DNA of 64,000 bases from Brachycybe producta. Its lineage: Eukaryota > Arthropoda > Diplopoda > Playtdesmida > Andrognathidae. Of the stretch, positions 3,962-38,555 are shown piece by piece (within the stretch, counting starts at the first letter, position 1; the number at the start of each line of letters is the position of its first letter). The position numbers were made by a program, and so were the translations under genes. The DNA is taken from NCBI GenBank assembly GCA_036925085.1, contig JAUPFP010000132.1, positions 1 to 64,000 on the forward strand, read 5' to 3'. The notes below the pieces were generated by a model. The model made no database searches. It was given only the letters and a program-made list of their open reading frames with translations, and had not been told where the DNA came from.

Positions 3962-3976
3962 GTGGTGTGCGACCGG
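3931..3976 (+). promoter_or_regulatory. -1 programmed ribosomal frameshift signal between gag and pol
   Basis: The heptamer G TTA AAC (3931-3937) lies in the gag frame exactly as X XXY YYZ-type sites require, 21 bases before the gag stop codon. After a 5-nt spacer, 3943-3950 pairs perfectly with 3969-3976 (8 bp), and 3951-3954 pairs with 3964-3967 (4 bp). One base is bulged and the loop has 9 nt. Slipping back one base moves translation into the pol frame, which is open on the far side. GUUAAAC is a known slippery site in some RNA viruses; its use here is inference. Confidence 0.8.
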
Positions 3977-9560: not shown

Positions 9561-9570
9561 TGTTTTTAAC

Positions 9571-9591
9571 GGTTTTGTCCCTTTTTCGCAG
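9571..9591 (+). promoter_or_regulatory. Candidate splice acceptor before the 3' ORF
   Basis: A pyrimidine-rich stretch, ttttgtccctttttcgcag, ends in AG at 9590-9591. Just downstream the reading frame becomes typical of the acidic and Pro/Ser-rich start of the extra ORF. Consensus quality is good; use is not proven. Confidence 0.4.
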
Positions 9592-12530: not shown

Positions 12531-12588
12531 GAAGGTCAGGTTCGGGGAGCAATCCTGGCTGGCTTGACTGACCTGTTCCCGAGACGGA

Positions 12589-12607
12589 ACAGGGAAGTTG
12601 AGAGGAT
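12589..12607 (+). promoter_or_regulatory. Polypurine tract before the 3' LTR
   Basis: The purine-rich stretch acagggaagttgagaggat sits directly against the 3' LTR start, the usual plus-strand primer position. It is interrupted by TT, so it is a weak example. Confidence 0.55.
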
Positions 12608-14625: not shown

Positions 14626-14626
14626 G

Positions 14627-14628
<2 letters not shown>

Positions 14629-14658
<30 letters not shown>

Positions 14659-14662
14659 TATA
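14629..14662. repeat. (TA)n microsatellite
   Basis: An almost uninterrupted run of TA dinucleotides marks the junction between the purine satellite and the next inverted array. Confidence 0.9.
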
Positions 14663-14671
14663 TTTTTTATA

Positions 14672-15178
14672 AATGACCTTGAGTTGACCTTAAGTCACCT
14701 TAAAATGACATTGAAAATTTTTTCTTCAAAAATGACCTTGAAATGATCTTGAGTGACATTGAAACGACCTTGAAAAAATATTTTTTTCAGAAATGACATT
14801 GAGTGACCTTGAAATGACCTATAAAAATATATTTTTTTCAAAAATGACTGAATTTGTTCAAAAATGTTAAATGATCTTGAATGACCTTGAAAAATATTTT
14901 TTTCAAAAATGAACTTGAGTTTTTCAATGTCATTTTTTTAAAAAAACCCTATTTTCAAGGTCACTCAAGGTAATTTATGAAAAAAATCCGTCATTTTTTT
15001 TAAAAAAAATAAAAGGGTCATTTTAAGGTCATTTTTTGAAAAAAAAATATTTTTCAGTCACTTAAGGTCATTTTTCCAAAAAAAATTCAAGATCATTTCA
15101 AGGAGACTCAAGGTCATTTTTGAAAAAAAAATGCAAGGTCATTTCAAGGTAACTCAAAATCATTTCAAGGTATGGGTG
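14672..15178. repeat. Head-to-head arrays of a tgaccttga motif
   Basis: From 14672 to about 14920 the sequence repeats aatgaccttga with T-rich linkers. From about 14925 to 15178 the same motif appears in reverse complement (tcaaggtcatt). The two half-arrays form a degenerate inverted repeat of about 250 bp per arm. No gene is visible. Confidence 0.75.
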
Positions 15179-16494: not shown

Positions 16495-16654
16495 GTACAC
16501 ACAGGAATTCTTTGTTGCGATACATTGTTGCGGGACTGCTCCGATTCAATGTTGCAGGGCAGAATCTCAACTGACGCAATTCAGACCCGCAACATTGTTC
16601 CGTGTCCACACCTACACTCAGTGTTTCTTTCTCCTTCTTGCTTTCACCATGTAA

Positions 16655-16831
16655 ATATCACCAGCGGAAGTGGCCCTTGCAATATGGGCCTACACGATGA
16701 TTTATAAAGAGGGGCAAATAAAGCAGAAATGGTGGTGGGCACACAAGCTCTTCTCAGCTGAGAGCACATTTGGTTTAAACCTTTTGGACAACCTGAAACA
16801 CAGTTACACAATTTATGCAAAATTTGTTTAA
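16655..16831 (+). pseudogene. Harbinger (HARBI1-like) transposase N-terminal remnant
   Basis: A 58-codon frame ending in TAA reads through AEVALAIWAY, a Lys-rich stretch, KWWWAHKL, and a Phe-Gly-Leu-Asn-Leu-Leu-Asp-Asn-Leu segment. Harbinger/HARBI1-type nucleases commonly start with a helix followed by an R-R-W-W-V-H/R-P motif and a G-x-(F/Y)-x-x-L-x-x-(E/D)-L helix. The resemblance is by eye and short. No catalytic core was found nearby, so this is at most a dead fragment. Confidence 0.4.
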
Positions 16832-16840
16832 CAGTATTTT

Positions 16841-16911
16841 CAGTGGTCCGCATCTTTTTTTAAGTCTGGTACTATAGTCTATAGACTTAAAAAAAGATGT
16901 GGACCACTGAG
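16841..16911. repeat. Palindrome, arms of about 28 bp
   Basis: cagtggtccgcatcttttttt (first arm, from 16841) pairs with its near-perfect reverse complement ending at 16911 around a spacer of about 15 bp. It is immediately followed by the next palindrome. Confidence 0.85.
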
Positions 16912-16921
16912 AAAGACTCAA

Positions 16922-16980
16922 AAAGCTCAGTTTGCTTTTAATTATTAAAGACGTCTTTAATAATTAAAAGCAAACTGAGC
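16922..16980. repeat. Near-perfect spacerless palindrome centred on GACGTC
   Basis: The 29-bp arm beginning gctcagtttgctttt runs into its exact reverse complement at the centre, gac|gtc, with no spacer. Spacerless palindromes of this length are usually unstable in DNA, so it may be young or an assembly-sensitive spot. Confidence 0.85.
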
Positions 16981-18479
16981 CATTTGAGTCTTTGTTTATA
17001 TTTCAAAAGATGTCAATACCATGAAATGTCCCGCAACAATGTTGAAATGTTTCCCATTTCGATGGGGCTCAAAAAACATGAATCTGAGCGGGTCAGACTA
17101 AAACACGGAAACGGATGGAAACTGACGGAAATGCGCGGAAAAATAAATATTAGGCCACTATAGGCAATACAAGGCACGGGAAAGCAAGGAAAACACATAC
17201 AAACACACAGAAAACACATTCAAACACACGGAAAAGCACGGAAACACATACAAACACACGGAAAAGCGCGGAAAACAATTACAAACACACGGAAAACACA
17301 TACAAACACACGGAAAACACATACAAACACACGGAAAACACATTCAAACACACGGAAAAGCGCGGAAAACAATACCAAACACACGGAAAAGCACGGAAAA
17401 CAATACCAAACACACGGAAAAGTGCGGAAAACAATTACAAACACACGGAAAAGCGCGGAAAACAATTACAAACACGAAAAAGCGCGTAAAACACATACAA
17501 ACACGGAAAAGCACGGGAAAAATTACAAACACACGGAAAAGCACGGAAAACACATACAAACACACGGAAAAGCACGGAAAACGATTACAAACACACGGAA
17601 AAGCACGGAAAACGATTACAAACACACGGAAAAGCGCGGAAAACAATTACAAACACACGAAAAAGCGCGTAAAACACATACAAACACGGAAAAGGCACGG
17701 GAAAAATTACAAACACACGGAAAAGCACGGAAAACACATACAAACACACGGAAAAGCACGGGAAAACGATTACAAACACACGGAAAAGCACGGAAAACGA
17801 TTACAAACACACGGAAAAGTGCGGAAAACAATTACAAACACGGAAAAGCACGGAAAACAATTACAAACATGGAAAACTGCAGAAAACACATAAAACGGAA
17901 AACAATTAAAACACACGGAAAAGCGCGGAAAACAATTACAAACACACGGAAAAGCACGGAAAACGATTACAAACACACGGAAAAGCACGGGAAAAATTAC
18001 AAACACACGGAAAAGCACGGAAAACACATACAAACACACGAAAAAGCACGGAAAACGATTACAAACACACGAAAAAGCACGGAAAACGATTACAAACACA
18101 CGAAAAAGCACGGAAAACGATTACAAACACACGGAAAAGCGCAGAAAACAATTACAAACACGGAAAAGCACGGAAAACAATTACAAACACGGAAAAGCAC
18201 GGAAAACAATTACAAACACGGAAAACTGCGAAAACACATAAAACGGAAAACAATTAAAACACACGGAAAAGCGCGGAAAACAATTACAAACACACGGAAA
18301 AGCACGGAAAACAATTACAAACACGGAAAAGCGCAGAAAACAATTACAAACACACGGAAAAGCGTGGAAAACAATTACAAACACACGGAAAAGCACGGAA
18401 AACAATTACAAACACACGGAAAAGCGCGGAAAAAAAATACAAACACACGAAAAAAGCGCGGAAAAAAATTACAAACACA

Positions 18480-19420
18480 CGGAAAACACATACAAACACT
18501 TGGAAAAGCGCGTAAAACACATACAAACGTACGGAAAAGCGCGGGAAAAATTACAAACACACGGAAAAGCACGGAAAACACATACAAACACACGGAAAAG
18601 CACGGAAGACGATTACAAACACACAGAAAAGCGCGGAAAACAATTACAAATACGGAAAAGCACGGAAAACAATTACTAACACACGGAAAACAATTACAAA
18701 CACGGAAAAGTGCGGAAAACACATACAAATGTGCGGAAAACAATTAAAAACACATGGAAAAGCACGGAAAACACATACAAACACACGGAAAAGTGCGGAA
18801 AACACATACAAATGCACGGAAAACAATTAAAAACACATGGAAAAGCACAGAAAACAATTACAAACACACGGAAAAGCGTGGAAAACAATTACAAACACAC
18901 GAAAAAGCGCGGAAAAAAATTACAAACACACGGAAAACACATACAAACACACGGAAAACACATACAAACACTTGGAAAAGCGCGTAAAACACATACAAAC
19001 GTACGGAAAAGCGCGGGAAAAATTACAAACACACGGAAAAGCACGGAAAACACATACAAACACACGGAAAAGCACGGAAGACGATTACAAACACACAGAA
19101 AAGCGCGGAAAACAATTACAAATACGGAAAAGCACGGAAAACAATTACTAACACACGGAAAACAATTACAAACACGGAAAAGTGCGGAAAACACATACAA
19201 ATGTGCGGAAAACAATTAAAAACACATGGAAAAGCACGGAAAACACATACAAACACACGGAAAAGTGCGGAAAACACATACAAATGCACGGAAAACAATT
19301 AAAAACACATGGAAAAGCACAGAAAACAATTACAAACACACGGAAAAGCGTGGAAAACAATTACAAACACACGGAAAAGCGTGGAAAACAATTACAAACA
19401 CACGGAAAAGCGCGGAAAAC
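18480..19420. repeat. 472-bp higher-order duplication inside the left arm
   Basis: A block of about 15 minisatellite units, including its private variants (lone acacttgg unit, aatacgg unit, actaacac unit), recurs 472 bp later. For example, the segment at 18644-18826 is repeated at 19116-19298. It shows recent unequal exchange or replication slippage of multi-unit blocks. Confidence 0.85.
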
Positions 19421-22400
19421 AATTACAAACACATGGAGAAACGCAGAAAACAATTACAAACACGGAAAAGCGCGGAAAACAATTACAAACACGGAAAAGC
19501 GCGGAAAACAATTACAAACACGGAAAAGTGCGGAAAACAATTACAAACACGGAAAAGCGCGGAAAACTCATACAAAAACACGGAAAAGTGCGGAAAACAC
19601 ATACAAACACACAAAAAAGCCCGGAAAACAAATACAAACACAAGGAAAACACATACAAACACACGGAAAACACATACAAACACATGGAAAAGCGCATAAA
19701 ACACATACAAACGTACGGAAAAGTGCGGAAAACACATACAAACAAACCGAAAAGCGCGGAAAACAAATACAAACACAAGGAAAAGCATGGAAAACAATTA
19801 CAAATACACGGAAAAGCGCGGAAAACAATTACAAACACACGGAAAAGCGCGGAAAACAATTACAAACACACAGAAAAGCGCGGAAAACAATTACAAACAC
19901 ACGGAAAAGTGCGGAAAACAATTACAAACACACAGAAAAGCGTGGAAAACAATTACAAACACGCGGAAATCAATTACAAACACACGGAAAAGCGTGGAAA
20001 ACGATTACAAACACGCGGAAAACAATTACAAACACACGGAAAACAATTACAAACACACGGAAAACACATACAAATGCACAAAAAAGCACAGAAAACGATT
20101 ACAAACGCACGGAAAAGTGCGGAAAACAATTACAAACACACGGAAAAGCACGGAAAACGATTACTAACACACAGAAAACAATTACAAACACACCGAAAAG
20201 TGCGGGAAACAATTACAAACACGGAAAAGCACGGAAAAAATTACAAACACACGGAAAAGTGCGGAAAACACATACAAATGTGCGGAAAACAATTAAAAAC
20301 ACATGGAAAAGCACGGAAAACAATTACAAACACACGGAAAAGCGTGGAAAACAATTACAAACACACGGAAAAGCGTGGAAAACAATTACAAACACACGGA
20401 AAAGCGTGGAAAACAATTACAAACACGCGGAAAACAATTACAAACACGTGGAAAACAATTACAAACAAACGGAAAAGCACGGAAACACATACAAACACAC
20501 GGAAAACGCATACAAACACACGGAAAACGCATACAAGCACACGGAAAAGCGCGGAAAACACATACAAACACACGGAAAGCACATACAAACACACGGAAAA
20601 GCGCGGAAAACAATTACAAACACATGGAGAAACGCAGAAAACTACAAAATTACAAACAAATGAAAATTACAAACACGGAAAAGCGCGGAAAACATTTACA
20701 AACACGGAAAAGCGCGGAAAACAATTACAAACACGGAAAAGCGTGGAAAACAATTACAAACACGGAAAAGCGCGGAAAACACATACAAAAACACAGAAAA
20801 GTGCGGAAAACACATACAAACACACGGAAAAGCACGGAAAACGATTACAAACACACGGAAAAGCACGGAAAACGATTACAAACACACGGAAAAGTGCGGA
20901 AAACAATTGCAAACATGGAAAAGCACGAAAAACAATTACAAACATGGAAAACTGCGGAAAACACATAAAACGGAAAACAATTAAAACACACGGAAAAGCG
21001 CGGAAAACAATTACAAACACATGGAAAAGCGCGGAAAACAATTACAAACACACGAAAAAGCGCGGAAAACAATTACAAACACACGAAAAAGCGCGGAAAA
21101 CAATTACAAACACACGGAAAAGCACGTAAAACACATACAAACACGGAAAAGCACGGGAAAAATTACAAACACACGGAAAAGCACGGAAAACACATACAAA
21201 CACACGAAAAAGCACGGAAAACGATTACAAACACACGAAAAAGCACGGAAAACGATTACAAACACACGGAAAAGCGCGGAAAACAATTACAAACACGGAA
21301 AAGCGCGGAAAACAATTACAAACACGGAAAAGTGCGGAAAACAATTACAAACACGGAAAAGCGCGGAAAACAATGACAAACACGGAAAAGCGCGGAAAAC
21401 AATTACAAACACGGAAAAGCGCGGAAAACAATTACAAACACGGAAAAGCACGGAAAACAATTACAAACACGGAAAACTGCGGAAAACACATAAAACGGAA
21501 AACAATTAAAACACACGGAAAAGCGCGGAAAACAATTACAAACACACGGAAAAGCGCGGAAACAATTACAAACACGGAAAAGCGCGGAAAACAATTACAA
21601 ACACGGAAAAGCACGGAAAACAATTACAAACACTGAAAAGCACGGAAAACACATACAAACACACGGAAAACGCATACAAACACACGGAAAACGCATACAA
21701 ACACATGGAGAAACGCAGAAAACAATTACAAACACGGAAAAGCGCGGAAAACATTTACAAACACGGAAAAGCGCGGAAAACAATTACAAACACGCGGAAA
21801 ACAATTACAAACACGTGGAAAACAATTACAAACAAACGGAAAAGCACGGAAACAATTACAAACACACGGAAAAGCACGGAAACAATTACAAACACGGAAA
21901 AGCGTGGAAAACAATTACAAACACTGAAAAGCACGGAAAACACATACAAACACACGGAAAACGCATACAAACACACGGAAAACGCATACAAGCACACGGA
22001 AAAGCGCGGAAAACACATACAAACACACGGAAAGCACATACAAACACACGGAAAGCACATACAAACACACGGAAAGCACATACAAACACACGGAAAAGCG
22101 CGGAAAACAATTACAAACACATGGAGAAACGCAGAAAACTACAAAATTACAAACAAATGAAAATTACAAACACGGAAAAGCGCGGAAAACATTTACAAAC
22201 ACGGAAAAGCGCGGAAAACAATTACAAACACGGAAAAGCGTGGAAAACAATTACAAACACGGAAAAGCGCGAAAAACACATACAAAAACACAGAAAAGTG
22301 CGGAAAACACATACAAACACACGGAAAAGCACGGAAAACGATTACAAACACACGGAAAAGCACGGAAAACGATTACAAACACACGGAAAAGTGCGGAAAA

Positions 22401-24759
22401 CAATTACAAACACGGAAAAGCACGAAAAAAATTACAAACACACGGAAAAGCACGGAAAAAATTACAAACACACGGAATAGCACGGGAAAAATTACAAACA
22501 CACGGAAAAGCACGGAAAACACATACAAACACACGGAAAAGCACGGAAGACGATTCCAAACACACAGAAAAGTGCGGAAAACAATTACAAACACGGAAAA
22601 GCATGGAAAACAATTACTAACACACGGAAAACAATTACAAACACATGGAAAAGTGCGGAAAACACATACAAATGCGCGGAAAACAATTAAAAACACATGG
22701 AAAAGCACGGAAAACACATACAAACACACGGAAAAGTGCGGAAAACACATACAAATGCGCGGAAAACAATTAAAAACACATGGAAAAGCACGGAAAACAA
22801 TTACAAACACACGGAAAAGCGTGGAAAACAATTACAAACACACGGAAAAGCGTGGAAAACAATTACAAACACGCGGAAAACAATTACAAACAAACGGAAA
22901 AGCACGGAAACAATTACAAACACACGGAAAAGCACGGAAACAATTACAAACACGGAAAAGCGCGGAAAACAATTACAAACACTGAAAAGCACGGAAAACA
23001 CATACAAACACACGGAAAACGCATACAAACACACGGAAAACGCATAATAAACACACGGAAAAGCGCGGAAAACACATACAAACACACGGAAAGCACATAC
23101 AAACACACGGAAAGCACATACAAACACACGGAAAGCACATACAAACACACGGAAAAGCGCGGAAAACAATTACAAACACATGGAGAAACGCAGAAAACTA
23201 CAAAATTACAAACAAACGAAAATTACAAACACGGAAAAGCGCGGAAAACATTTACAAACACGGAAAAGCGCGGAAAACAATTACAAACACGGAAAAGCGC
23301 GGAAAACACATACAAAAACACGGAAAAGTGCGGAAAACACATACAAAAACATGGAAAAGCACGGAAAACGATTACAAACACACGGAAAAGCACGGAAAAC
23401 GATTACAAACACACGGAAAAGTGCGGAAAACAATTACAAACACGGAAAAGCACGAAAAACAATTACAAACATGTAAAACTGCGGAAAACACGTAAAACGG
23501 AAAACAATTAAAACACACAGAAAAGCGCGGAAAACAATTACAAACACATGGAAAAGCGCGGAAAACAATTACAAACACACGGAAAAGCGTGGAAAACAAT
23601 TACAAACACACGGAAAAGCGCGGAAAACAATTACAAACACACGGAAAAGCGCGGAAAAAAATTACAAACACACGAAAAAGCGCGGAAAAAAATTACAAAC
23701 ACACGGAAAACACATACAAACATACGGAAAACACATACAAACACTTGGAAAAGCGCGTAAAACACATACAAACGTACGGAAAAGCGCGGGAAAAATTACA
23801 AACACACGGAAAAGCACGGAAAACACATACAAACACACGGAAAAGCACGGAAGACGATTACAAACACACAGAAAAGCGCGGAAAACAATTACAAACACGG
23901 AAAAGCACGGAAAACAATTACTAACACACGGAAAAGTGCGGAAAACAATTACAAACACACAGAAAAGCGTGGAAAACAATTACAAACACGCAGAAAACAA
24001 TTACAAACACACGGAAAAGCGTGGAAAACAATTACAAACACTGAAAAGCACGGAAAACACATACAAACACACGGAAAAGTGCGGAAAACAATTACAAACA
24101 CGGAAAAGCACGGAAAACAATTACAAACACGGAAAAGCATGGAAAACACATACAAATACACGGAAAAGACCGGAAAACACATACAAACACACGGAAAAGC
24201 GCGGAAAACACATACAAACGTGCGGAAAACACATACAAACACACGGAAAGCACATACAAACACACGGAAAAGCATGGAAAACACATACAAACACATGGAA
24301 AAGCACGGGAAAAAATTACAAACACGAAAAAGCATGGAAAACACATACAAATACACAAAAAAGCGCGGAAAACACATACAAACACGGAAAAACGCGGAAA
24401 CAACTACAAACACGGAAAAGTGCGGAAAACAATTACAAACACGGAAAAGCACAGAAAACACATACAAACACGGAAAAGCGCAGAAAACAATTACAAACAT
24501 GGAAAAGCGCGGAAAGCACATATAAACACGAAAAAGCGCAGAAAACAATTACAAACATGGAAAAGTGCGGAAAACACATACAAACACACAGAAAAGGGCA
24601 GAAAATGTTTAAAAACACACGGAAGAGTGCAGAAAACATTTTCAAACACAGAAAAGCATGGAAAACACAAACACATAGCAATGCACTGAAAACATTTGCA
24701 AAAAATGGAAAGATGGAAAAATGGCAAAAGTAAAAATGCAAAAATAAAACAAACATGAT

Positions 24760-25385
24760 AATTTTAAAATATTTTTATTGTAACTTGAGAACAATGGAAA
24801 AATTCTTTCCAACTGGCTAAAACATGTATTCTAAAAAAGTTTGTAACTTGAAGATGTTGGTTAATTTTTATAAAATGTAAATTACAAAATAAAACATGTT
24901 TAACAGAAAGATGAATGTATACACATATATTAAAACAATTTCACATCAGATTTTTATGAAGTGACTTTCTTTAAAATGTTTTTTATTATAACATGAGAAC
25001 AGTAAAAAATGAATTCTTGCCAACTGGCTAATACATGTATTAAAGTATTCTTAAAAAGTTTACTACTTGAACATGTTGGTTGTTGTTTAAAAAAATGTAA
25101 ATTAGAAAATAACTCAATGGGAAGATGAATAAATACAAAAATATTAAAACAATTTAGCATGAGATTTTTACCAAGTGTTTTTTTTTATATCATAACTTGA
25201 GAACAATAAAAATGTGTTGCGAACTGGCTAAAACATGTATAAAAGTAGTCTCAAAAAGTTTACATCTTAACAATTTTGGATTGTTTAAAAAATGTAAAAT
25301 TCAAAATAAAACATGTTCAACCCGAAGTTGAAAAAGTAAATAGAAAAATATTAACACAATTTCATATCACATTTTTATGAAGAAA
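24760..25385. repeat. Three diverged tandem copies of a roughly 205-bp AT-rich unit
   Basis: The words taacttgagaacaa, ccaactggctaaaacatgta, aaaaagtt and aacaatttcacatca recur in order at about 24775, 24985 and 25195. Only the outermost copy is part of the inverted arm; the other two lie in the loop just 3' of the Ulp1 ORF. They may hold the transcription end signals of the ORFs. Confidence 0.8.
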
Positions 25386-25395
25386 ATTATGAAAC

Positions 25396-26232
25396 TCATA
25401 TGAAACATTCAGAACAAATAAAATACGGCTCGAATCTGTTTTCTTTGTTTTCATGGAGGCACTGTTTGTGGTACCACTCTCTACATGAAACACACATAAT
25501 CCACTTTACATGCAATGAACCATCTTGCATTGCAATTTCATTTGCATTGCAGTGGTCCAGACCTACAGCACAGATAGATGGGTCAGAATGATGCAATAGT
25601 TGTACTTCAGTAAAGTACTTGAAAACAGTATCTTCTTTTGCATTGACCTTAATATGAGTTTTTTCGATTGCATTTAAAACTACCTTTAGTTGTTCATCTG
25701 TCAACTTTTTTTTGTTGACATCTCTAGTAGAGAATTTAGAATTTTTTACAATATGAACAACCCATGCCCTTCCCTGTTCTGATGTTTCTGGGATTTGAAA
25801 TTTGTCTTTAGTTAAAAAACTATACAAATGCAGGATGCTGTGAACTCCGCAGTCATCAAAATTGCATTGACGTGGTGCATCTGTAGATAAAATGCACTCC
25901 ATGTCATTAGGTGGGAAAAATCCAGCTGTTATATATGCAATCTTGTATATAGTAAGAAGGGCTTCAAACTTGTCATTGTAGTTGTTCAGATGGCCTTTAA
26001 GAGAGTCACAAATAATTACTTTTCGTGCTTTAAGAAGAATGAATCCAGTTAAAAAGTGCGAACAACTTCGTTCATGTAAATCAATTGATGGCTTACTTGC
26101 CATGTCTACAACTATGGCATCATAATTCAATGCTGCTAACTTATGAAAATACTTTACAGTTGGAACATAAATTCTATGGAAAACTACAGCATAATCACAG
26201 TTTGATAGGTAAAACGGACAATTCATATCCAT
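25396..26232 (-). CDS. Ulp1-like SUMO/ubiquitin-type cysteine protease with PHD-like C-terminus (foldback element)
   Basis: The 278-codon ORF starts at ATG 26230-26232. A Ulp1 (C48) catalytic set can be read in order: His59 in SHFLTGF, Asp76 in ICDSL, Gln122 and Cys128 in the NFDDCGVHS segment. Such proteases remove SUMO-like modifiers. The C-terminus (about residues 220-278) has Cys/His spaced like a PHD finger: MCVSC, WYHKQC, FICSEC. The helix that normally opens the Ulp1 fold (a WL-x-x-x-I/V-x-x-x-F pattern) is not in this ORF but at the end of the upstream transposase ORF. The two overlap by 38 bp in different frames. I infer an original fusion protein now separated by a frameshift, or joined by splicing or recoding. 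The ATG may therefore not be the true start. Confidence 0.8.
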   Translation of the reverse strand: MDMNCPFYLSNCDYAVVFHRIYVPTVKYFHKLAALNYDAIVVDMASKPSIDLHERSCSHFLTGFILLKARKVIICDSLKGHLNNYNDKFEALLTIYKIAYITAGFFPPNDMECILSTDAPRQCNFDDCGVHSILHLYSFLTKDKFQIPETSEQGRAWVVHIVKNSKFSTRDVNKKKLTDEQLKVVLNAIEKTHIKVNAKEDTVFKYFTEVQLLHHSDPSICAVGLDHCNANEIAMQDGSLHVKWIMCVSCREWYHKQCLHENKENRFEPYFICSECFI

Positions 26233-28600
26233 AGTTGTGAATTAAGCTTTTAAAAGCTTCATCGACGATAAAATTTGACAGCCATTCACCAACATTACAT
26301 TCTGGGTACTGTTTGATATCTGCCTCCAGTAATGACGAATGAGCTTTTAATGAAAAATCTTCATTTGCTGTGTCATTGGCAGTGATAACTTCAGCAGATG
26401 GTGTTTCAAATGAAACAACATTATCTGTTTTGTCAGTATCAGTGTCAATAATGACAATTGGCTCTAGTACATCTGCATTGTACTTTGTTATAGGCGTAGA
26501 ATGGCAAAACTCTGAGTGGAACGTTTCAATGGGACTGCCTAAATCAAGAGATCGATCATCTTCGTCTCCTGTGTCCATGTAAAGATCTACAAACAAATGA
26601 TTTTTTGCTTGCAAAGAATCATCTGCCTCCTTATAGTTGAGATCAAGATCTTTTGTGCGTGGACATTTTCGGCCACTTCTGCCCTCTTTGTTGCGTGTTT
26701 TTTTTCGTAACACTGATAATTTGTATGTCCGGTCGTCTCGAGTGGGAATGGCTACATTTGTAGCAAAACAAACAGCTAGCATGTGACTACATACACCAGA
26801 AGTACCACAGGAACACTGCATAACATTGTTGTCATCATTCCATACAGTGTTGCAAGTAGGTTTGTATGGGGAACGAACCAGAAACCTTCTTGAAACTGAG
26901 TCCAAAGAAACAAGATTGTTAATTGCACATAACAATGCCAAGCTTTTATTAGTCATTCTATAATTTGGCAGTTTTTCCGTATTTTCTTTTGGGTGAGGTA
27001 GATCACCTTTGATATGTTTTACGATGTCATCTACCTTTTTACACGTGTCAACAAACCCTAACTCAAAAGTAAATGTTGTTTGCTTTCTCATGTATGTTTT
27101 TTTAATTGTATATTCACCCAAGTTTTTAAATGCTCTGCTGAATTCCCCCAAAAAGTGTCTTTGTAGCTGGAACAAAGCTAAAACCAATGCATCGATTGGC
27201 AATTCTTGTCTATTTAATTCTAGTTTAAACAGATTGTGTAAGCTTTCGCATGTGTTTATTGTTGGTCTTTTTTTCTTGAAAGCTGCAAATGCCTTAAAAA
27301 CATATGCTACACAATGATTTTGCATGTCTTCTTTAATGTGGTTGTCAAAGTATTTTAAAAAGCATTCACTCCATGTTACACGATACTTCTCCTTCTCGTA
27401 AAGCTCAGAAAATATTTCAGATGACTCACCGTCAATTAAATTTATCATGTGAGTACTCAATACTTTTAAATCGTCATGTGTTTTCCCCTTGGCTTTTTGA
27501 ATCCACAGTTGTACATCTCTACGTAGGTGATTACTGCAAATCAGCAATGGAATGCTTGGAATGTTTTTCCAAACCGCATTGCGAATTGCTGCCTCCCGAT
27601 CTGTGATGAGTGGAATCTTTTGACAGTTTTTATTTAATAGCAGTTTGGACTCAACAATTTCCATAAATCTCTCATGGATTACACCAAGCTTTTTGTCGTG
27701 TAACATAAACAAAACTGGGAAAATTGGATAATTCTCACATAAAACATTTTTCATCACCAGTGTCGATACGTATATGTCCCCTAGTTCAAACGTTGTGTCG
27801 TAACTAATTTGTTGCTCTAAAGTCAATTCTGTATTTGATTCTTTCAATATCTTTTTTGAAAACTGAATCATAATGTCATCACCAATTATCAGGACCAAAT
27901 TTGGACACATTTCAAAATGATGAATGACATCACCCAGTTCTTTAGTTTTGCTCATTTCGTAAATGCTAAATATTTCATCATTTCGAAGCTTAGTTTTGTT
28001 TCTTTCAAAACTTCGAGCATTTTTTACTTGTTTAATGTCCTTAGGAGCATACACTGATTCGTGAACTTTACCACAGTCACTTTTCTTATAATCATCTACT
28101 CCTTCATTGTATATTTTTCTTGGGTTGAGGTCCCATTCTGTTGCTTTTTTGTGTATTGCATCACGGACAGTTTTTGTTGTTCGTGTGTATGGCCTTTCTC
28201 TAGATGGTAATGAATTACCATGTGGCTTTACATGTTTGTCATCAATTGTACCTTTGTACTGCATAAGCACAAAAGTTCTCGGTGGCTGTGCCATCTTGTA
28301 AATTACTTTTTTGAAATTTGTCATAAATTTGTGCCTGTAATAGGTTTTTACTACTTGGCCAGATTGTTTGGAACTATTATTAACCCAAACGCCCCACTGA
28401 TCACAAAGATAATCATAATCATCATCACTCTTTACTCTCATAACATATGATGAGCCACCATCAGGCTTAACAGGTGGGAGAGGAGTAATGACATCATCAA
28501 GTAAACCTAGTTGTGCCCTTTGCAGGATTTGAAAAGCCTCACTGGTAGTATAGAACTTACCAAAAGAACCACTTTGGAAAATAACAACTTGATCTGACAT
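26195..28600 (-). CDS. MULE-like transposase with SWIM zinc finger (foldback element)
   Basis: The frame opens at 28621, but the first ATG is 28598-28600, giving 801 residues. Numbering from that ATG, an N-terminal Lys/Arg-rich region (about 1-200) probably binds DNA. The catalytic core has D268 in YDTTF, D334 in ITDREAA and E452 in TINTCES, the DDE pattern of Mutator-like transposases. A SWIM finger C-x-C-x5-C-x-H lies at 596-606 (QCSCG...CSHM). A basic patch and an acidic Thr/Asp-rich linker follow. The last 30 residues contain WLSNFIVDEAF, which matches the first helix of a Ulp1 domain and points to fusion with the next ORF. The core is uninterrupted and all three acids are present, so the enzyme may be functional. 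KDZ-type transposases are the main alternative family. Confidence 0.85.
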   Translation of the reverse strand: MSDQVVIFQSGSFGKFYTTSEAFQILQRAQLGLLDDVITPLPPVKPDGGSSYVMRVKSDDDYDYLCDQWGVWVNNSSKQSGQVVKTYYRHKFMTNFKKVIYKMAQPPRTFVLMQYKGTIDDKHVKPHGNSLPSRERPYTRTTKTVRDAIHKKATEWDLNPRKIYNEGVDDYKKSDCGKVHESVYAPKDIKQVKNARSFERNKTKLRNDEIFSIYEMSKTKELGDVIHHFEMCPNLVLIIGDDIMIQFSKKILKESNTELTLEQQISYDTTFELGDIYVSTLVMKNVLCENYPIFPVLFMLHDKKLGVIHERFMEIVESKLLLNKNCQKIPLITDREAAIRNAVWKNIPSIPLLICSNHLRRDVQLWIQKAKGKTHDDLKVLSTHMINLIDGESSEIFSELYEKEKYRVTWSECFLKYFDNHIKEDMQNHCVAYVFKAFAAFKKKRPTINTCESLHNLFKLELNRQELPIDALVLALFQLQRHFLGEFSRAFKNLGEYTIKKTYMRKQTTFTFELGFVDTCKKVDDIVKHIKGDLPHPKENTEKLPNYRMTNKSLALLCAINNLVSLDSVSRRFLVRSPYKPTCNTVWNDDNNVMQCSCGTSGVCSHMLAVCFATNVAIPTRDDRTYKLSVLRKKTRNKEGRSGRKCPRTKDLDLNYKEADDSLQAKNHLFVDLYMDTGDEDDRSLDLGSPIETFHSEFCHSTPITKYNADVLEPIVIIDTDTDKTDNVVSFETPSAEVITANDTANEDFSLKAHSSLLEADIKQYPECNVGEWLSNFIVDEAFKSLIHNYGYELSVLPIKL

Positions 28601-28660
28601 TGCACTATGGTAGCACACCACTAGTAACTTTTTAACACTTTGATAATAATCACTGCTAAA

Positions 28661-28947
28661 ATATGACCTTCATAAGCAACACTAGCTGTTAAAACTCAAA
28701 TCATGACTCAAATAATTAACAACAAAACTTTACCTCACATGAAGCCTTAATTCATGACCATACCTTTCAATGTAGAGTTCAGATAACTTCTTTGTCTGGA
28801 AACAGTGTTGCCAATTCCTCTGAAAGAAGTTATCTGAACTGCATGGAAGGTATGGTCATTAACTAAGGCTTCATGTAAGGAGAGTTTTGTTGATTATTGG
28901 AGTCATGATTTGAGTTTTAACAACTAGTGTTGGTTATGAAGGTATTT
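28661..28947. repeat. Imperfect palindrome just upstream of the transposase
   Basis: Segments such as gaccttcataa, tgttaaaactcaaatcatgac, catgaagcctta, gaccatacctt and agttcagataacttctt in the left half reappear as reverse complements in the right half. The arms are about 120 bp around a spacer near 28795-28820. It ends about 60 bp before the transposase ATG, so it may be the promoter/5' UTR region or a nested MITE. Confidence 0.8.
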
Positions 28948-29058
28948 TAAAAAGAAATTTTCCACTATATTTTTGACTATAATTTGATTGAAGTATATTT
29001 TGAGGGCAATTTCGTTATTACTTAGTGTTTATGTTTGCTATTCGTTTCGGTTATTCGG

Positions 29059-32000
29059 TTAAAGAAAGTCACTTCATAAAAATCTGCAGTGAAATTGTTT
29101 TAATATATGTGTATACATTCATCTTTCTGTTAAACATGTTTTATTTTGTAATTTACATTTTATAAAAATTAACCAACATCTTCAAGTTACAAACTTTTTT
29201 AGAATACATGTTTTAGCCAGTTGGAAAGAATTTTTCAATTGTTCTCAAGTTACAATAAAAATATTTTAAAATTATCATGTTTGTTTTATTTTTGCATTTT
29301 TACTTTTGCCATTTTTCCATCTTTCCATTTTTTGCAAAAGTTTTCAGTGCATTGCTATGTGTTTGTGTTTTCCATGCTTTTCTGTGTTTGAAAATGTTTT
29401 CTGCACTCTTCCGTGTGTTTTTAAACATTTTCTGCCCTTTTCTGTTTGTATGTGTTTTCCGCGCTTTTCCATGTTTGTAATTGTTTTCTGCGCTTTTCCG
29501 TGTTTATATGTGCTTTCCGCGCTTTTCCATGTTTGTAATTGTTTTCTGCGCTTTTCCGTGTTTGTATGTGTTTTCTGTGCTTTTCCGTGTTTGTAATTGT
29601 TTTCCGCACTTTTCCGTGTTTGTAGTTGTTTCCGCGTTTTTCTGTGTTTGTATGTGTTTTCCGCGCTTTTTTGTGTATTTGTATGTGTTTTCCATGCTTT
29701 TTCGTGTTTGTAATTTTTTCCCGTGCTTTTCCATGTGTTTGTATGTGTTTTCAATGCTTTTCCGTGTGTTTGTATGTGCTTTCCGTGTGTTTATGTGTTT
29801 TCCGCGCGTTTGTATGTGTTTTCCGCGCTTTTCCGTGTGTTTGTATGTGTTTTCCGGTCTTTTCCGTGTATTTGTATGTGTTTTCCATGCTTTTCCGTGT
29901 TTGTAATTGTTTTCCGTGCTTTTCCGTGTTTGTAATTGTTTTCCGCACTTTTCCGTGTGTTTGTATGTGTTTTCCGTGCTTTTCCGTGTGTTTGTGATTT
30001 TTCCCGTGCTTTTCCGTGTTTGTATGTGTTTTACGCGCTTTTCCGTGTGTTTGTAATTGTTTTCCACGCTTTTCCGTGTGTTTGTAATTGTTTTCCACAC
30101 TTTTCCGTGTGTTTGTAATTGTTTTCCGTGCTTTTCCATGTGTTTTTAATTGTTTTCCGCGCATTTGTATGTGTTTCCGCACTTTTCCGTGTGTTTGTAT
30201 GTGCTTTCCGTGTGTTTGTATGTGTTTTTCGCGCTTTTCCGTGTTTGTAATTGTCTTCCGCGCTTTTCCGTGTTTGTAAATGTTTTCTGCGCTTTTCCGT
30301 GTTTGTAATTGTTTTCTGCGTTTCTCCATGTGTTTGTAATTGTTTTCCGCGCTTTTCCGTGTGTTTGTATGTGTCTTCCGCGCTTTTCCGTGTGTTTGTA
30401 TGCGTTTTCCGTGTGTTTGTATGCGTTTTCCGTGTGTTTGTATGCGTTTTCCGTGTGTTTGTATGCGTTTTCCGTGTGTTTGTATGTGTTTTCCGCACTT
30501 TTCCGTGTGTTTGTAATCGTTTTCCGTGCTTTTCCGTGTGTTTGTATGTGTTTTCCGTGCTTTTCCGTGTGTTTGTAATTTTTCCCGTGCTTTTCCGTGT
30601 TTGTATGTGTTTTACGCGCTTTTTCGTGTGTTTGTAATTGTTTTCCGCATGTTTGTAATTGTTTTCCACGCTTTTCCGTGTGTTTGTAATTGTTTTCCGC
30701 GCTTTTCCGTGTGTTTGTAATTGTTTCCGTGCTTTTCTGTGTGTTTGTAATTGTTTCCGTGCTTTTCCGTTTGTTTGTAATTGTTTTCCGCGTGTTTGTA
30801 ATTGTTTTCCACGCTTTTCCGTGTGTTTGTAATTGTTTTCCACGCTTTTCCGCGTGTTTGTAATTGTTTTCCGTGCTTTTCCATGTGTTTTTAATTGTTT
30901 TCCGCGCATTTGTATGTGTTTTCCGCACTGTTCCGTGTGTTTGTATGTGTTTTCCGTGCTTTTCCATGTGTTTTTAATTGTTTTCCGCGCATTTGTATGT
31001 GTTTTCCGCACTTTTCCATGTGTTTGTAATTGTTTTCCGTGTGTTAGTAATTGTTTTCCTTGCTTTTCTGTGTTTGTAATTGTTTTCCGCACTTTTCTGT
31101 GTGTTTGTAATCGTCTTCCGTGCTTTTCCGTGTGTTTGTATGTGTTTTCCGTGCTTTTCCGTGTGTTTGTAATTTTTCCCGTGTGTTTGTAATTTTTTAT
31201 GTGCTTTTCCGTGTGTTTGTAATTTTTTCCGCTTTTCCGTACGTTTGTATGTGTTTTACGCGCTTTTCCATGTGTTTGTATGTGTTTTCCGTGTGTTTGT
31301 ATGTGTTTTCCGTGTGTTTGTAATTTTTTTCCGCGCTTTTTTGTGTTTGTAATTTTTTTCCGTGCTTTTCTGTGTGTTTGTAATTGTTTTCCGCGCTTTT
31401 CCGTGTGTTTGTAATTGTTTTCCGCGCTTTTCCTTGTGTTTTAATTGTTTTCCGTTTTATGTGTTTTCCGCAGTTTTCCGTGTTTGTAATTGTTTTCCGT
31501 GCTTTTCTGTGTTTGTAATTGTTTTCCGCACTTTTCCGTGTGTTTGTAATCGTTTTCCGTGCTTTTTCGTGTGTTTGTAATCGTTTTCCGTGCTTTTCCG
31601 TGTGTTTGTAATTGTTTTCCACGCTTTTCCGTGTGTTTGTAATTGTTTTCCGTGCTTTTCCGTGTTTGTAATTGTTTTCCGCACTTTTCCGTGTTTGTAA
31701 TCGTTTTCCGTGCTTTTCCGTGTGTTTGTATGTGTTTTCCGTGCTTTTCCGTGTGTTTGTAATTTTTCCCGTGCTTTTCCGTGTTTGTATGTGTTTTACG
31801 CGCTTTTTCGTGTATTTGTAATTGTTTTCCGCGTGTTTGTAATTGTTTTCCACGCTTTTCCGTGTGTTTGTAATTGTTTTCCGCGCTTTTCCGTGTGTTT
31901 GTAATTGTTTTCCGCGCTTTTCCGTGTGTTTGGTATTGTTTTCCGCGCTTTTCCGTGTGTTTGGTATTGTTTTCCGCGCTTTTCCGTGTGTTTGAATGTG

Positions 32001-35000
32001 TTTTCCGTGTGTTTTTATGTGTTTTCCGTGTGTTTGTATGTGTTTTCCGTGCTTTTCCGTGTGTTTGTATGTGTTTTCCGTGCTTTTCCGTGTGTTTGTA
32101 ATTGTTTTCCGCGCTTTTCCGTGTGTTTGTATGTGTTTCCGCGCTTTTCCGTGTTTTAATTGTTTTCCGTTTTATGTGTTTTCCGCAGTTTTCCGTGTTT
32201 GTAATTGTTTTCCGTGCTTTTCCGTGTTTGTAATTGTTTTCCGCACTTTTCCGTGTGTTTGTAATCGTTTTCCGTGCTTTTTTGTGTGTTTGTAATTGTT
32301 TTCCGTGCTTTTTCGTGTGTTTGTATGTGTTTTCCGTGCTTTTCCGTGTGTTTGTAATTTTTCCCGTGCTTTTCCATGTTTGTATGTGTTTTACGTGCTT
32401 TTCCGTGTGTTTGTAACTGTTTTCCGCGCTTTTCCGTGTGTTTGTAATTGTTTTCCGTGCTTTTCCATGTGTTTGTAATTGTTTTCCGCGCTTTTCCGTG
32501 TGTTTTAATTGTTTTCCGTTTTATGTGTTTTCCACAGTTTTCCATGTTTGTAATTGTTTTCCGTGCTTTTCCGTGTTTGTAATTGTTTTCCGTGCTTTTC
32601 CGTGTGTTTGTAATCGTTTTCCGTGCTTTTCCGTGTGTTTGTAATCGTTTTCCGTGCTTTTCCGTGTGTTTGTAATTTTTCCCGTGCTTTTCCGTGTTTG
32701 TATGTGTTTTACGCGCTTTTTTCGTGTTTGTAATTGTTTTCCGCGTATTTGTAATTGTTTTCCACGCTTTTCCGTGTGTTTGTAATTGTTTTCCACGCTT
32801 TTCCGTGTGTTTGTAATTGTTTTCCGTGCTTTTCCATGTGTTTTTAATTGTTTTCCGCGCATTTGTATGTGTTTTCCGCACTTTTCCATGTGTTTGTAAT
32901 TGTTTTCCGCGCATTTGTATGTGTTTTCCGCACTTTTCCATGTGTTTGTAATTGTTTTCCGTGTGTTAGTAATTGTTTTCCGTGTTTGTAATTGTTTTCC
33001 GTGCTTTTCCATGTGTTTTTAATTGTTTTCCGCGCATTTGTATGTGTTTTCCGCACTTTTCCGTGTGTTTGTATGTGTTTTCCGTGCTTTTCCATGTGTT
33101 TTTAATTGTTTTCAGCGCATTTGTATGTGTTTTCCGCACTTTTCCATGTGTTTGTAATTGTTTTCCGTGTGTTAGTAATTGTTTTCCGTGCTTTTCCGTG
33201 TTTGTAATTGTTTTCCACGCTTTTCCGTGTGTTTGTAACTGTTTTCCGTGCTTTTCCATGTGTTTTTAATTGTTTTCCGTGCTTTTCCATGTGTTTTTAA
33301 TTGTTTTCCGCGCATTTGTATGTGTTTTCCGCACTTTTCCGTGTGTTTGTATGTGTTTTCCGCACTTTTCCATGTGTTTGTAATTGTTTTCCGCGCATTT
33401 GTATGTGTTTTCCGCACTTTTCCATGTGTTTGTAATTGTTTTCCACGCTTTTCCGTGTGTTTGTAATTGTTTTCCGTGCTTTTCCATGTGTTTTTAATTG
33501 TTTTCCGCGCATTTGTATGTGTTTTCCGCACTTTTCCGTGTGTTTGTATGTGTTTTCCGTGCTTTTCCATGTGTTTTTAATTGTTTTCCGCGCATTTGTA
33601 TGTGTTTTCCGCACTTTTCCATGTGTTTGTAATTGTTTTCCGTGTGTTAGTAATTGTTTTCCGTGCTTTTCCGTGTTTGTAATTGTTTTCCGCACTTTTC
33701 TGTGTGTTTGTAATCGTCTTCCGTGCTTTTCCGTGTGTTTGTATGTGTTTTCCGTGCTTTTCCGTGTGTTTGTAATTTTTCCCGTGCTTTTCCGTGTGTT
33801 TGTAATTTTTTATGTGCTTTTCCGTGTGTTTGTAATTTTTTCCGCGCTTTTCCGTACGTTTGTATGTGTTTTACGCGCTTTTCCATGTGTTTGTATGTGT
33901 TTTCCGTGTGTTTGTATGTGTTTTCCGTGTGTTTGTAATTTTTTTCCGCGCTTTTTCGTGTGTTTGTAATTTTTTTCCGTGCTTTTCCGTGTGTTTGTAA
34001 TTGTTTTCCGCGCTTTTCCGTGTGTTTGTAATTGTTTTTCCGCACTTTTCCGTGTGTTTGTAATTGTTTTCCGCGCTTTTCCTTGTGTTTTAATTGTTTT
34101 CCGTTTTATGTGTTTTCCGCAGTTTTCCGTGTTTGTAATTGTTTTCCGTGCTTTTCCGTGTTTGTAATTGTTTTCCACGCTTTTCCGTGTGTTTGTAACT
34201 GTTTTCCGTGCTTTTCCATGTGTTTTTAATTGTTTTCCGTGCTTTTCCATGTGTTTTTAATTGTTTTCCGCGCATTTGTATGTGTTTTCCGCACTTTTCC
34301 GTGTGTTTGTATGTGTTTTCCGCACTTTTCCATGTGTTTCTAATTGTTTTCCGCGCATTTGTATGTGTTTTCCGCACTTTTCCATGTGTTTGTAATTGTT
34401 TTCCATGTGTTAGTAATTGTTTTCCGTGCTTTTCCGTGTTTGTAATTGTTTTCCACGCTTTTCCGTGTGTTTGTAATTGTTTTCCGTGCTTTTCCATGTG
34501 TTTTTAATTGTTTTCCGCGCATTTGTATGTGTTTTCCGCACTTTTCCGTGTGTTTGTATGTGTTTTCCGTGCTTTTCCATGTGTTTTTAATTGTTTTCCG
34601 CGCATTTGTATGTGTTTTCCGCACTTTTCCATGTGTTTGTAATTGTTTTCTGTGTTAGTAATTGTTTTCCGTGCTTTTCCGTGTTTGTAATTGTTTTCCG
34701 CACTTTTCTGTGTGTTTGTAATCGTCTTCCGTGCTTTTCCGTGTGTTTGTATGTGTTTTCCGTGCTTTTCCGTGTGTTTGTAATTTTTCCCGTGCTTTTC
34801 CGTGTGTTTGTAATTTTTTATGTGCTTTTCCGTGTGTTTGTAATTTTTTCCGCGCTTTTCCGTACGTTTGTATGTGTTTTACGCGCTTTTCCATGTGTTT
34901 GTATGTGTTTTCCGTGTGTTTGTATGTGTTTTCCGTGTGTTTGTAATTTTTTTCTGCGCTTTTTCGTGTGTTTGTAATTTTTTTCCGTGCTTTTCCGTGT

Positions 35001-37238
35001 GTTTGTAATTGTTTTCCGCGCTTTTCCGTGTGTTTGTAATTGTTTTCCGCACTTTTCCGTGTGTTTGTAATTGTTTTCCGCGCTTTTCCTTGTGTTTTAA
35101 TTGTTTTCCGTTTTATGTGTTTTCCGCAGTTTTCCGTGTTTGTAATTGTTTTCCGTGCTTTTCCGTGTTTGTAATTGTTTTCCGCACTTTTCCGTGTGTT
35201 TGTAATCGTTTTCCGTGCTTTTTCGTGTGTTTGTATGTGTTTTCCGTGCTTTTCCGTGTGTTTGTAATTTTTCCCGTGCTTTTCTGTGTTTGTATGTGTT
35301 TTACGTGCTTTTCCGTGTGTTTGTAATTGTTTTCCACGCTTTTCCGTGTGTTTGTAATTGTTTTCCACGCTTTTCCGTGTGTTTGTAATTGTTTTCCGTG
35401 CTTTTCCGTGTTTGTAATTGTTTTCCGCACTTTTCTGTGTGTTTGTAATCGTCTTCCGTGCTTTTCCGTGTGTTTGTATGTGTTTTCCGTGCTTTTCCGT
35501 GTGTTTGTAATTTTTCCCGTGCTTTTCCGTGTGTTTGTAATTTTTTATGTGCTTTTCCGTGTGTTTGTAATTTTTTCCGCGCTTTTCCGTACGTTTGTAT
35601 GTGTTTTACGCGCTTTTCCATGTGTTTGTATGTGTTTTCCGTGTGTTTGTATGTGTTTTCCGTGTGTTTGTAATTTTTTTCCGCACTTTTTCGTGTGTTT
35701 GTAATTTTTTTCCGTGCTTTTCCGTGTGTTTGTAATTGTTTTCCGCGCTTTTCCGTGTGTTTGTAATTGTTTTCCGCGCTTTTCCGTGTGTTTGTAATTG
35801 TTTTCCGCGCTTTTCCTTGTGTTTTAATTGTTTTCCGTTTTATGTGTTTTCCGCAGTTTTCCGTGTTTGTAATTGTTTTCCGTGCTTTTCCGTGTTTGTA
35901 ATTGTTTTCCGCACTTTTCCGTGTGTTTGTAATTGTTTTCCGTGCTTTTCCGTGTTTGTAATTGTTTTCCGCACTTTTCCGTGTGTTTGTAATCGTTTTC
36001 CGTGCTTTTTCGTGTGTTTGTAATCGTTTTCCGTGCTTTTTCGTGTGTTTGTATGTGTTTTCCGTGCTTTTCCGTGTGTTTGTAATTTTTCCCGTGCTTT
36101 TCCGTGTTTGTATGTGTTTTACGTGCTTTTCCGTGTGTTTGTAATTGTTTTCCACGCTTTTCCGTGTGTTTGTAATTGTTTTCCGCGCTTTTCCGTGTTT
36201 GTAATTGTTTTCCGCACTTTTCCGTGTGTTTGTAATCGTTTTCCGTGCTTTTCCGTGTGTTTGTATGTGTTTTCCGTGCTTTTCCGTATGTTTGTAATTT
36301 TTCCCGTGCTTTTCCGTGTTTGTATGTGTTTTACGCGCTTTTTCGTGTGTTTGTAATTGTTTTCCGCGTGTTTGTAATTGTTTTCCACGCTTTTCCGTGT
36401 TTGTAATTGTTTTCCGCGCTTTTCCGTGTGTTTGTAATTGTTTTCCACGCTTTTCCGTGTTTGGTATTGTTTTCCACGCTTTTCCGTGTGTTTGGTATTG
36501 TTTTCCCGCGCTTTTCCGTGTGTTTGAATGTGTTTTCCGTGTGTTTGTATGTGTTTTCCGTGTGTTTGTATGTGTTTTCCGTGTGTTTGTATGTGTTTTC
36601 CGTGCTTTTCCGTGTGTTTGTAATTTTTCCCGTGCTTTTCCGTGTTTGTATGTGTTTTACGCGCTTTTTCGTGTGTTTGTAATTGTTTTCCGCGTGTTTG
36701 TAATTGTTTTCCACGCTTTTCCGTGTGTTTGTAATTGTTTTCCCGCGCTTTTCCGTGTGTTTGTAATTGTTTTCCGCGCTTTTCCGTGTGTTTGGTATTG
36801 TTTTCCGCGCTTTTCCCGTGTGTTTGGTATTGTTTTCCGCGCTTTTTCCGTGTGTTTGGTATTGTTTTCCGCACTTTTCCGTGTGTTTGAATGTGTTTTC
36901 CGTGTGTTTGTATGTGTTTTCCGTGTGTTTGTAATTGTTTTCCGCGCTTTTCCGTGTGTTTGTATGTGTTTCCGTGCTTTTCCGTGTGTTTGAATGTGTT
37001 TTCTGTGTGTTTGTATGTGTTTTCCTTGCTTTCCCGTGCCTTGTATTGCCTATAGTGGCCTAATATTTATTTTTCCGCGCGTTTCCGTCAGTTTCCATCC
37101 GTTTCCGTGTTTTAGTCTGACCCAATCTGAGCTGCTGAGATTCAGCCCCGTAACATTTCAACATTGTTGCGGGACAGAATCGCAACAGACGAGATTCAGC
37201 CGCGATTCCGCCCCGCAACAAAGATTCCCGGTGTGTAC
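29059..37238 (-). repeat. Right arm of the giant inverted repeat
   Basis: It is the reverse-orientation counterpart of the left arm: unique end 29059-29287, then the 31-bp minisatellite (read as gtgtgtttgtaattgttttccgcgcttttcc) to about 37070, then an outer unique end. It has its own higher-order blocks: a segment at 33723-33938 recurs at 34731-34946 and 35458-35673. Variants such as tttggtattgttttcc cluster near 31930 and 36460-36860, and the left arm has the complementary variant near 17370-17410. The outer 60 bp before 37130 match 17080-17160 inverted almost exactly. Confidence 0.95.
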
Positions 37239-37724
37239 TATCTTTTATGACAACGTGTTGCTGAGTTTAGTGAAAATATATTTTCCACATTGTGTGAAAC
37301 AAAAGTACCTCAGAATGCACTTAGTTGTTCAGTGCAATTCTGAATAGGTACAGGGTGAATTAAGTTAAGTTAGGAGTTAATGAGTTAAGTTAGGTCATTT
37401 TCCCAATTTTTAAGGTCATTTTTTTTACTTTTTAAAGGGCATTTTATATGGTCATTTTTTCCATTTTTTAGGTCATCAACATCCGAGCCCTAGTGATGAT
37501 GCAGCATATATAGTGTGGGTGCCATTTGTCTGTGGTAATGAGTGAGTCCTCCATAGTTCTGATTGATGCCCGCCACCCCCAGAGTTCAGAAGAACCCTCC
37601 AAGCGGCCCAGTTGATCATGGGCGGGCATCCATTGTTTTTTTTATTTTTGGATAGCTTTCTCCCTTTCTTCCGTTGAACTAGAACAAGAAGCTCGAGGAC
37701 ACGCTTCCCTCTAGTTAGGGGGAA
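37239..37724. other. Spacer and probable 3' internal remnant of an LTR element
   Basis: No gene. After the foldback end there are ttaagttaggt-rich and ggtcatttttt-rich stretches (37360-37490). The last roughly 230 bp end in a purine tract, ttaggggggaa-like, directly before the LTR at 37725. This suggests they are internal sequence of that retrotransposon. Confidence 0.45.
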
Positions 37725-38304: not shown

Positions 38305-38555
38305 AATTCAAAACCCCGGGGGCCCCGTTCCAAAGTTGCGAAAGGCCCTCGGCAGCCCCGTTTTGAAGTTGCGAGGGGCCCCATTTTGAAGTTGCAACGG
38401 GCCCCGGTGCCCGTTCCAAAATTGTGAGGGCCTCTGGTGGCCATGTTCTGAAGTTGCAAAGGGCCCCTAAAAGGCCCCATTCCAAAGTTGCGAGGGGCGA
38501 CTGGGGGCCACTTTCTGAAGTTGCGAGGGGCCCCGTTCCGAAGTTGCGAGGGTCA
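38305..38555. repeat. GC-rich minisatellite (gttgcgaggggccccgttc units)
   Basis: About eight imperfect units of 30-36 bp share the core ccccgttccgaagttgcgaggggc. It abuts the lone LTR and contrasts strongly with the AT-rich DNA that follows. Confidence 0.85.

Follow-up and report, generated by a model that had tools for sequence, protein, structure and literature searches.

The window, meaning the whole 64-kb stretch of DNA analysed here, contains a foldback element of 20,034 bp at 17090–37123, with long inverted arms that consist largely of short tandem repeats, the mark of the foldback class. The original prediction of a foldback transposon, with arms built from a minisatellite and with MULE and Ulp1 coding sequence between them, was borne out. 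Coordinates of the features, and of related insertions elsewhere, are collected in Table 1; C1, C2, C3, C5, C6, C8, C15, C38, and C89, here and below, are labels for contigs of the same genome as the window.

Table 1. Features of the foldback element and its insertion site in the window, and other insertions of the family.
Feature	Position	Strand	Remarks
Host repeat, left half (not part of the element)	16495..17080	.	Insertion site; tested from 16900 on
Left target site duplication, 9 bp, AATCTGAGC	17081..17089	+	Single copy in uninterrupted host repeat
Left inverted arm	17090..24974	+	Terminus starting GGGTCAGACTAAAACACGG, ~31-bp array, unique inner end
~200-bp tandem repeat, 2.3 copies	24826..25309	+	Straddles inner end of left arm, downstream of gene
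Loop, about 4.1 kb	24975..29058	.	Limits from arm alignment
Gene, 3′ part: Ulp1 (Peptidase_C48) and PHD	25396..26238	-	Domain matches
Gene, 5′ part: MULE transposase domain and SWIM zinc finger	26195..28669	-	Frame broken where 3′ part begins
Inner hairpin, 5′ end of gene	28657..28949	.	Arms 28657-28793 / 28823-28949
Palindrome-centre remnant in window	28821..29051	.	Separates head-to-head genes in C2, C5, C38
Right inverted arm	29059..37123	-	Mirror of left arm
Right target site duplication, 9 bp	37124..37132	+	Matches AATCTGAGC duplication
Host repeat, right half (not part of the element)	37133..37238	.	Same dispersed repeat as left half
Full-length insertion, window	17090-37123		20.0 kb
Full-length insertion	C2:4229405-4243488		14.1 kb
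Full-length insertion	C5:5398643-5412657		14.0 kb
Full-length insertion	C38:889843-903077		13.2 kb
Full-length insertion	C89:389017-400285		11.3 kb
Further foldback	C1		4.3 kb; ends read
Gene-less foldback	C8		2.8 kb

Tandem Repeats Finder places arrays with a unit of about 31 bp at 17201–24243 and 29360–36902, with sub-periods of 10 and 21 bp, and the autocorrelation peak is strongest at 31 in both arms; together with alignment, these confirm the predicted pair of inverted ~31-bp repeat arms around a loop of about 4.1 kb. Over the inner 0.97 kb of the arms (24002–24974 vs. 29059–30024) 950 of 964 aligned sites match, and near the outer ends 190 bp are exact between them (17133–17322 vs. 36891–37080). 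The whole arms (7,885 and 8,065 bp) are identical at 6861 of 7440 sites, in 167 blocks, and for two controls, made by shuffling the right arm in 31-bp blocks, the figures are 6115/7079 and 6142/7035. Much of the raw identity between the arms is thus that of the repeat unit itself, and the arms are collinear at both ends and rearranged in between, forming no perfect hairpin. The private array units common to both arms (1101 of 3185 and of 2720) may reflect old common descent.

The element had been predicted to extend from 16495 to 37238, which is wrong at both ends: 16495–17089 and 37124–37238 are halves of a dispersed host repeat. When the flanks were joined with one copy of the target site duplication (TSD), 29 of 29 fetched copies of this repeat (L010–L038) aligned across the junction and so show the site uninterrupted; the shortest alignment begins 120 bases ahead of it and ends 108 beyond it, and the best is gap-free there. 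These 29 copies are empty sites, such as would precede an insertion, and they show that the window element inserted as one unit, with a 9-bp duplication, into the host repeat. Used as a genome query, the outermost 197 bp of the right end gave two kinds of match, the outer 115 bp being an abundant dispersed repeat (705 candidates, 40 scored) and the inner 84 bp matching a C38 locus where MULE domains were also found. Of the unique matching segments predicted for the arms, the inner ones stand; the outer ones lie outside the element, and resemble each other because the host repeat contains inverted sequence. Hairpins were read by eye near 16840–16905 and 16905–17010 in the host repeat (16495–17089 plus 37124–37330).

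The coding content predicted for the loop (MULE, SWIM, Ulp1, and PHD) is present, in one gene and not in the predicted pair. In the window, MULE (25.3 bits, cut-off 27.6) and SWIM (18.7, cut-off 19.6) share one frame, and Ulp1 (21.9, cut-off 20.7) and PHD (23.2, cut-off 24) are in another, so that Ulp1 is the only domain above its curated cut-off; the break is near 26.2 kb. In relatives all domains lie in a single frame of 1088 codons, giving 1065 aa from the first Met, and two separate genes can be ruled out. This frame is intact in four of the eight gene copies of the five full-length insertions (both in C2, the right one in C5, the left one in C38). The intact C2 protein has MULE at 29.0 bits, above the cut-off, with SWIM, PHD, and Ulp1 (17.3) below theirs. 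The gene is thus a predicted MULE-SWIM-Ulp1-PHD fusion whose minor domains have near-threshold scores, and the window copy is to all appearances an older, degenerate derivative, disabled by a broken gene. Candidate D-D-E positions in the transposase were picked by eye, with the catalytic motif as guide. At the 5′ end of the gene, the arms of the inner hairpin match at 118 of 127 sites by one alignment, and at 82% by blastn.

Between the window and C2 genes dN/dS is 0.36. The Ulp1-PHD part has 11 synonymous differences in 174 sites and 8 nonsynonymous in 702 (Fisher p = 2.4e-4), and since nonsynonymous changes are the rarer per site, the protease and PHD part seems to have been kept by selection and not as passive cargo. 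For the MULE-SWIM part dN/dS is 0.64 on 23 differences, a weak constraint, and in six stretches of decayed, more distant gene copies it ranges from 0.29 to 0.66. Modelled with AlphaFold in single-sequence mode, the C-terminal 317 aa have a mean pLDDT of 32.5, and a PDB sequence search with the protein gave one match, to the PHD-bearing KDM5B (E 0.092).

A 124-bp terminus query gave at least 49 matches (40 of 259 candidates scored); with the loop query, for which 39 of 123 candidates were scored, this sets a lower bound on family size. A check proposed with the original prediction, for other copies with matching termini and target duplications, yielded four further full-length insertions with the same termini and arrays and their own 8–9-bp TSDs. 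Loop genes with unrelated short ends, named as the contrary case, were found in none of the four. The termini are inverted at both ends and 98–100% identical to the query in all five full-length copies. Short members are also present, the five measured being 277–394 bp. In a survey of TSDs, 19 candidate insertions were examined, and seven were dropped because a recognisable terminal motif was absent from at least one side. Exact 8- or 9-bp duplications flank nine of the 12 with both termini, the remaining three being imperfect (C89 8/9, C6 7/9, C15 5/9). Those of C38 and C5 are A-rich.

Five more diverged remnants of the loop gene, all partial fragments, have 80–91% identity. Two of these (C5:1701-1708 kb and C3:10344 kb) adjoin array or terminus matches, and for three (C1:6571 kb, C3:7138 kb, and C3:8324 kb) there is no array or terminus match within the 7–9 kb examined. 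Other strong MULE genes of the genome were rejected as family members, with no terminus match at the eight loci L001–L008 (3.2–3.3 kb each). When L001, L003, L005, and L008 were compared with the family protein, L005 alone matched (E 0.001, 24–30% identity over parts). A different MULE gene (G000:C1:4996294-4997964, L067) lies less than about 1 kb from an 87% identical terminus and array, with no significant match to the family protein over the 241 aa read; going by this proximity, one terminus family may serve two transposases. Separately, G000:C1:21881807-21895050 contains three MULE-domain frames (719–723 aa) about 6.5 kb apart in one orientation, perhaps a tandem array.

Three of the full-length insertions, those in C2, C5, and C38, are near-complete palindromes, arranged array-gene-centre-gene-array with the genes head to head. 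C2 and C5 have two full copies of the gene region each, though the left frame of C5 is only 1003 codons long; in C38 the left copy is full and the right one lacks its 5′ part. Both genes are in unbroken frame in C2 only. The centre, of about 240–250 bp, is the same in all three, and most of it, including the inner hairpin, is kept in the window, where it sits upstream of the single gene and is followed by the right arm. In C89 one gene survives, and what is left of the other half differs from the remnant in the window. The window copy and C89 are probably separate deletion derivatives, each minus one gene, so that the window copy would once have had a second gene. Of the diverged remnants, those at C5:1701-1708 kb (88–90% identity) and C3:7138-7140 kb (80–82%) are head to head and suggest that this arrangement is old, although they are no proof of it, since different gene parts survive on their two sides; those at C1:6571 kb, C3:8324 kb, and C3:10344 kb are in a single orientation only. 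As the two genes are oriented away from the centre and would yield products of the same sense, long double-stranded RNA could form only if transcription ran through the centre.

Another history, possible but doubtful, is that the one-gene form seen in the window is ancestral and that the palindrome is a single, recent product of a template switch or gap repair that lengthened the right arm inward with a copy of the left arm and gene; it would then have spread with little or no later conversion beyond exchange between insertions. The junction in the window (29051/29059) lies no more than about 10 bp from the edge of the palindrome, as could be expected from a one-gene ancestor, whereas a simple deletion would have ended there by chance. 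Among the three palindromes, gene copies also differ by no more than 0.25%, and the window copy is 1.6–1.8% from the rest. On the other hand C89, 0.2–0.4% from the palindromes, lost a gene at different break points, so that loss does occur; the head-to-head remnants at 80–90% identity exist; and five changes common to both arms of one lineage are left needing explanation.

These five are among 22 variable columns in the seven gene copies outside the window. Eleven columns are private to one copy, and six distinguish one half from the other in C2 and C5, a point against conversion. At the remaining five, taking the window and C89 as outgroups, the derived state is found in the two halves of a single lineage and nowhere else: 25078, 26832, and 27685 in all four C2/C5 copies, and 24686 and 26047 in both copies of C38. 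Given a single origin of the palindrome, as the shared centre indicates, these changes must have been copied from half to half or have come from another insertion. From them we infer arm-to-arm gene conversion between the halves, a case of five sites in three palindromes that exchange between insertions or two independent palindrome formations could mimic. In C38 the halves differ at none of 3361 gene sites and at 5 of 1397 aligned array sites, and the best alignment of its short arm makes this a truncated form of the long arm of the same element. Of the C89 arrays, the ends were read.

The relation between C2 and C5 is different inside and outside. Their arms are in the same order (short left arm, 1344 of 1344 sites identical; long right arm, 3876 of 3884), and their interiors (8729 and 8727 bp) match at 8724 of 8727 sites with one gap when one is reversed, vs. 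8549 of 8584 with 13 gaps when aligned directly. The centre is likewise in opposite orientation. At the level of base matches, this shows that the interior has been inverted relative to the arms, and it points to a crossover between the inverted arms, which would give such a flip.

Homogeneity of the halves might instead come from frequent ectopic recombination or conversion among different insertions, and not between the arms of one. The C2 and C5 arrays are nearly identical at different sites, and each C2 gene is nearer to one C5 gene (1–2 differences) than to its own partner (7), which close kinship of the two insertions explains as well. That the C38 halves are closer to each other than to any other insertion, and that the C2/C5 flip is most simply a within-element event, make such exchange an improbable source. 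Long inverted repeats are difficult to assemble, but it is very hard to credit that the inverted arms or two-gene palindromes are hairpin-read or collapse errors when five insertions with their own flanks and duplications lie on contigs of 0.19 to 14 Mb, and when C2 and C5 have arms of unequal length and halves distinguished by single-base markers.

The reading that we favour, and consider likely, is of a foldback MULE family that moves by cut-and-paste with its own transposase and undergoes arm-to-arm conversion and crossover, with the window copy a disabled insertion. Judging from its sequence, the 1065-aa MULE-SWIM-Ulp1-PHD transposase would cut and join the termini, and the array units probably supply it with many binding sites, by analogy with Galileo. 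The arms of a single insertion would pair with each other; a broken arm would be repaired with the opposite half of that insertion as template, so that the two genes stay alike; crossovers between the arms would flip the interior; and incomplete copying or deletion would give one-gene copies such as the window and C89. A further step can be proposed only tentatively, and we think it rather unlikely: that the palindrome is a maintenance device, its two transposase genes serving as mutual repair templates and arm-to-arm conversion preserving function between jumps. Just as speculative is its corollary that decay follows once an insertion, such as the window copy, has lost one half.

It has long been asked why foldback elements bear inverted arms of such length, and in some copies here the arms extend over the transposase gene itself. 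The marked differences between halves make conversion and inversion within a single transposon directly countable, and the C2/C5 pair is a base-level example of inversion inside a foldback element of a family other than FB. If palindromy does preserve the gene, this would be self-repair by a selfish element, and if it serves as a maintenance device the palindrome would be a mobile analogue of the sex-chromosome palindromes that conserve genes.

Several features place the family in the Mutator (MULE) superfamily: the PF10551 match of the intact C2 protein (29.0 vs. 27.6 bits, the window copy at 25.3 being below), the 124-bp inverted repeats at both ends, and exact TSDs of 8 or 9 bp in nine of the 12 insertions with both termini. 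Mutator target site duplications are 8–11 bp. Ginger1 elements combine a Gypsy-integrase-type transposase (rve, H2C2) with Ulp1 or OTU; membership there was rejected, as the 1072-aa frame matched neither rve nor H2C2 at E up to 0.1, and so was membership in Tm1/Phantom, as neither the window frames nor the intact frame matched FLYWCH at that E limit. FB-NOF has a coding loop of about 4 kb, akin to that in the window, and NOF is reportedly not a transposase, a finding ascribed to Badal in 2013. FARE2 of Arabidopsis is said to be a large foldback element with a MULE-type coding region; it is a plant family, unlike this one.

The combination looked undescribed in the original prediction, but it has more precedent than that. 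Mutator/foldback elements with 9-bp TSDs and Mutator transposases with Ulp1 and PHD are in print, while the two-gene palindrome is unreported in the literature searched: at the level of title and abstract, the open-licence papers listed gave no description of two-gene or palindromic transposons, and none of a foldback element with MULE and Ulp1 or of MULE and Ulp1 with SWIM and PHD. The two-gene palindrome is the unusual form, foldback MULEs and Ulp1/PHD in animal Mutator transposases being already known. Drosophila FB (PMC7642927) resembles the family in its arthropod host, repeat-built inverted arms, 9-bp TSDs, and variable array length; cuticle-protein genes, with 33 domain matches in the genome analysed here, mark the host of this family as an arthropod. 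FB copies described in the available part of that paper have tandem short repeats of 27–31 bp and conserved ends of 467–479 bp, the two insertions each totalling 2.4–2.6 kb without NOF; no two-gene palindrome appears in that part, in contrast to the family here, and inversion inside FB elements mediated by their repeats is called “conceivable.” Tm1 of root-knot nematodes (PMC3169594) shares a MULE transposase within foldback-type, repeat-built ends, 9-bp TSDs, and MITE-like short members, but it is 2.6 kb, with ~14-bp repeats and one gene, a Phantom-type FLYWCH-MULE of 496 aa with introns; a MULE transposase in FARE is also stated there. Mutator transposases with Ulp1 are reported from plants and also from hydra and lancelet, with PHD in a figure of aligned proteins (PMC2836005); their domains are alike, but in the accessible text they are described without foldback or palindromic arms. 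Galileo (PMC3688188) and Tetris (PMC4079207) share long, internally repeated inverted arms and structural variants. The Galileo arms have multiple footprinted transposase binding sites (PMC3688188), and Tetris has 8–9-bp duplications (PMC4079207). Unlike the MULE here, the Galileo transposase is of P type (P superfamily), and for Tetris the excerpts give no known transposase; two inverted genes, present in C2, C5, and C38, are not described in the same excerpts for either (PMC3688188, PMC4079207).

Elsewhere in the window, a Ty3/Gypsy-type LTR retroelement occupies 795–13359, its direct repeats (795–1555 and about 12608–13359) 92.9% identical and matches to gag, reverse transcriptase, RNase H, and integrase between them. 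Long GAAAGGAC/GGATGA-type short tandem repeats lie directly outside both LTRs (1–794, 13359–14615), which suggests that the retroelement may have inserted into a short-tandem-repeat array. Inside it is a 132-bp tandem repeat of 2.8 copies (9177–9545), and the long open frames beside this repeat (8228–9898 and 10914–12530) have no Pfam match. The G+C content is 54% in 1–14700 vs. 34% in 38001–64000, and short, G+C-rich tandem repeats of about 23 bp are found in the right flank of the element, at 38355–38552.
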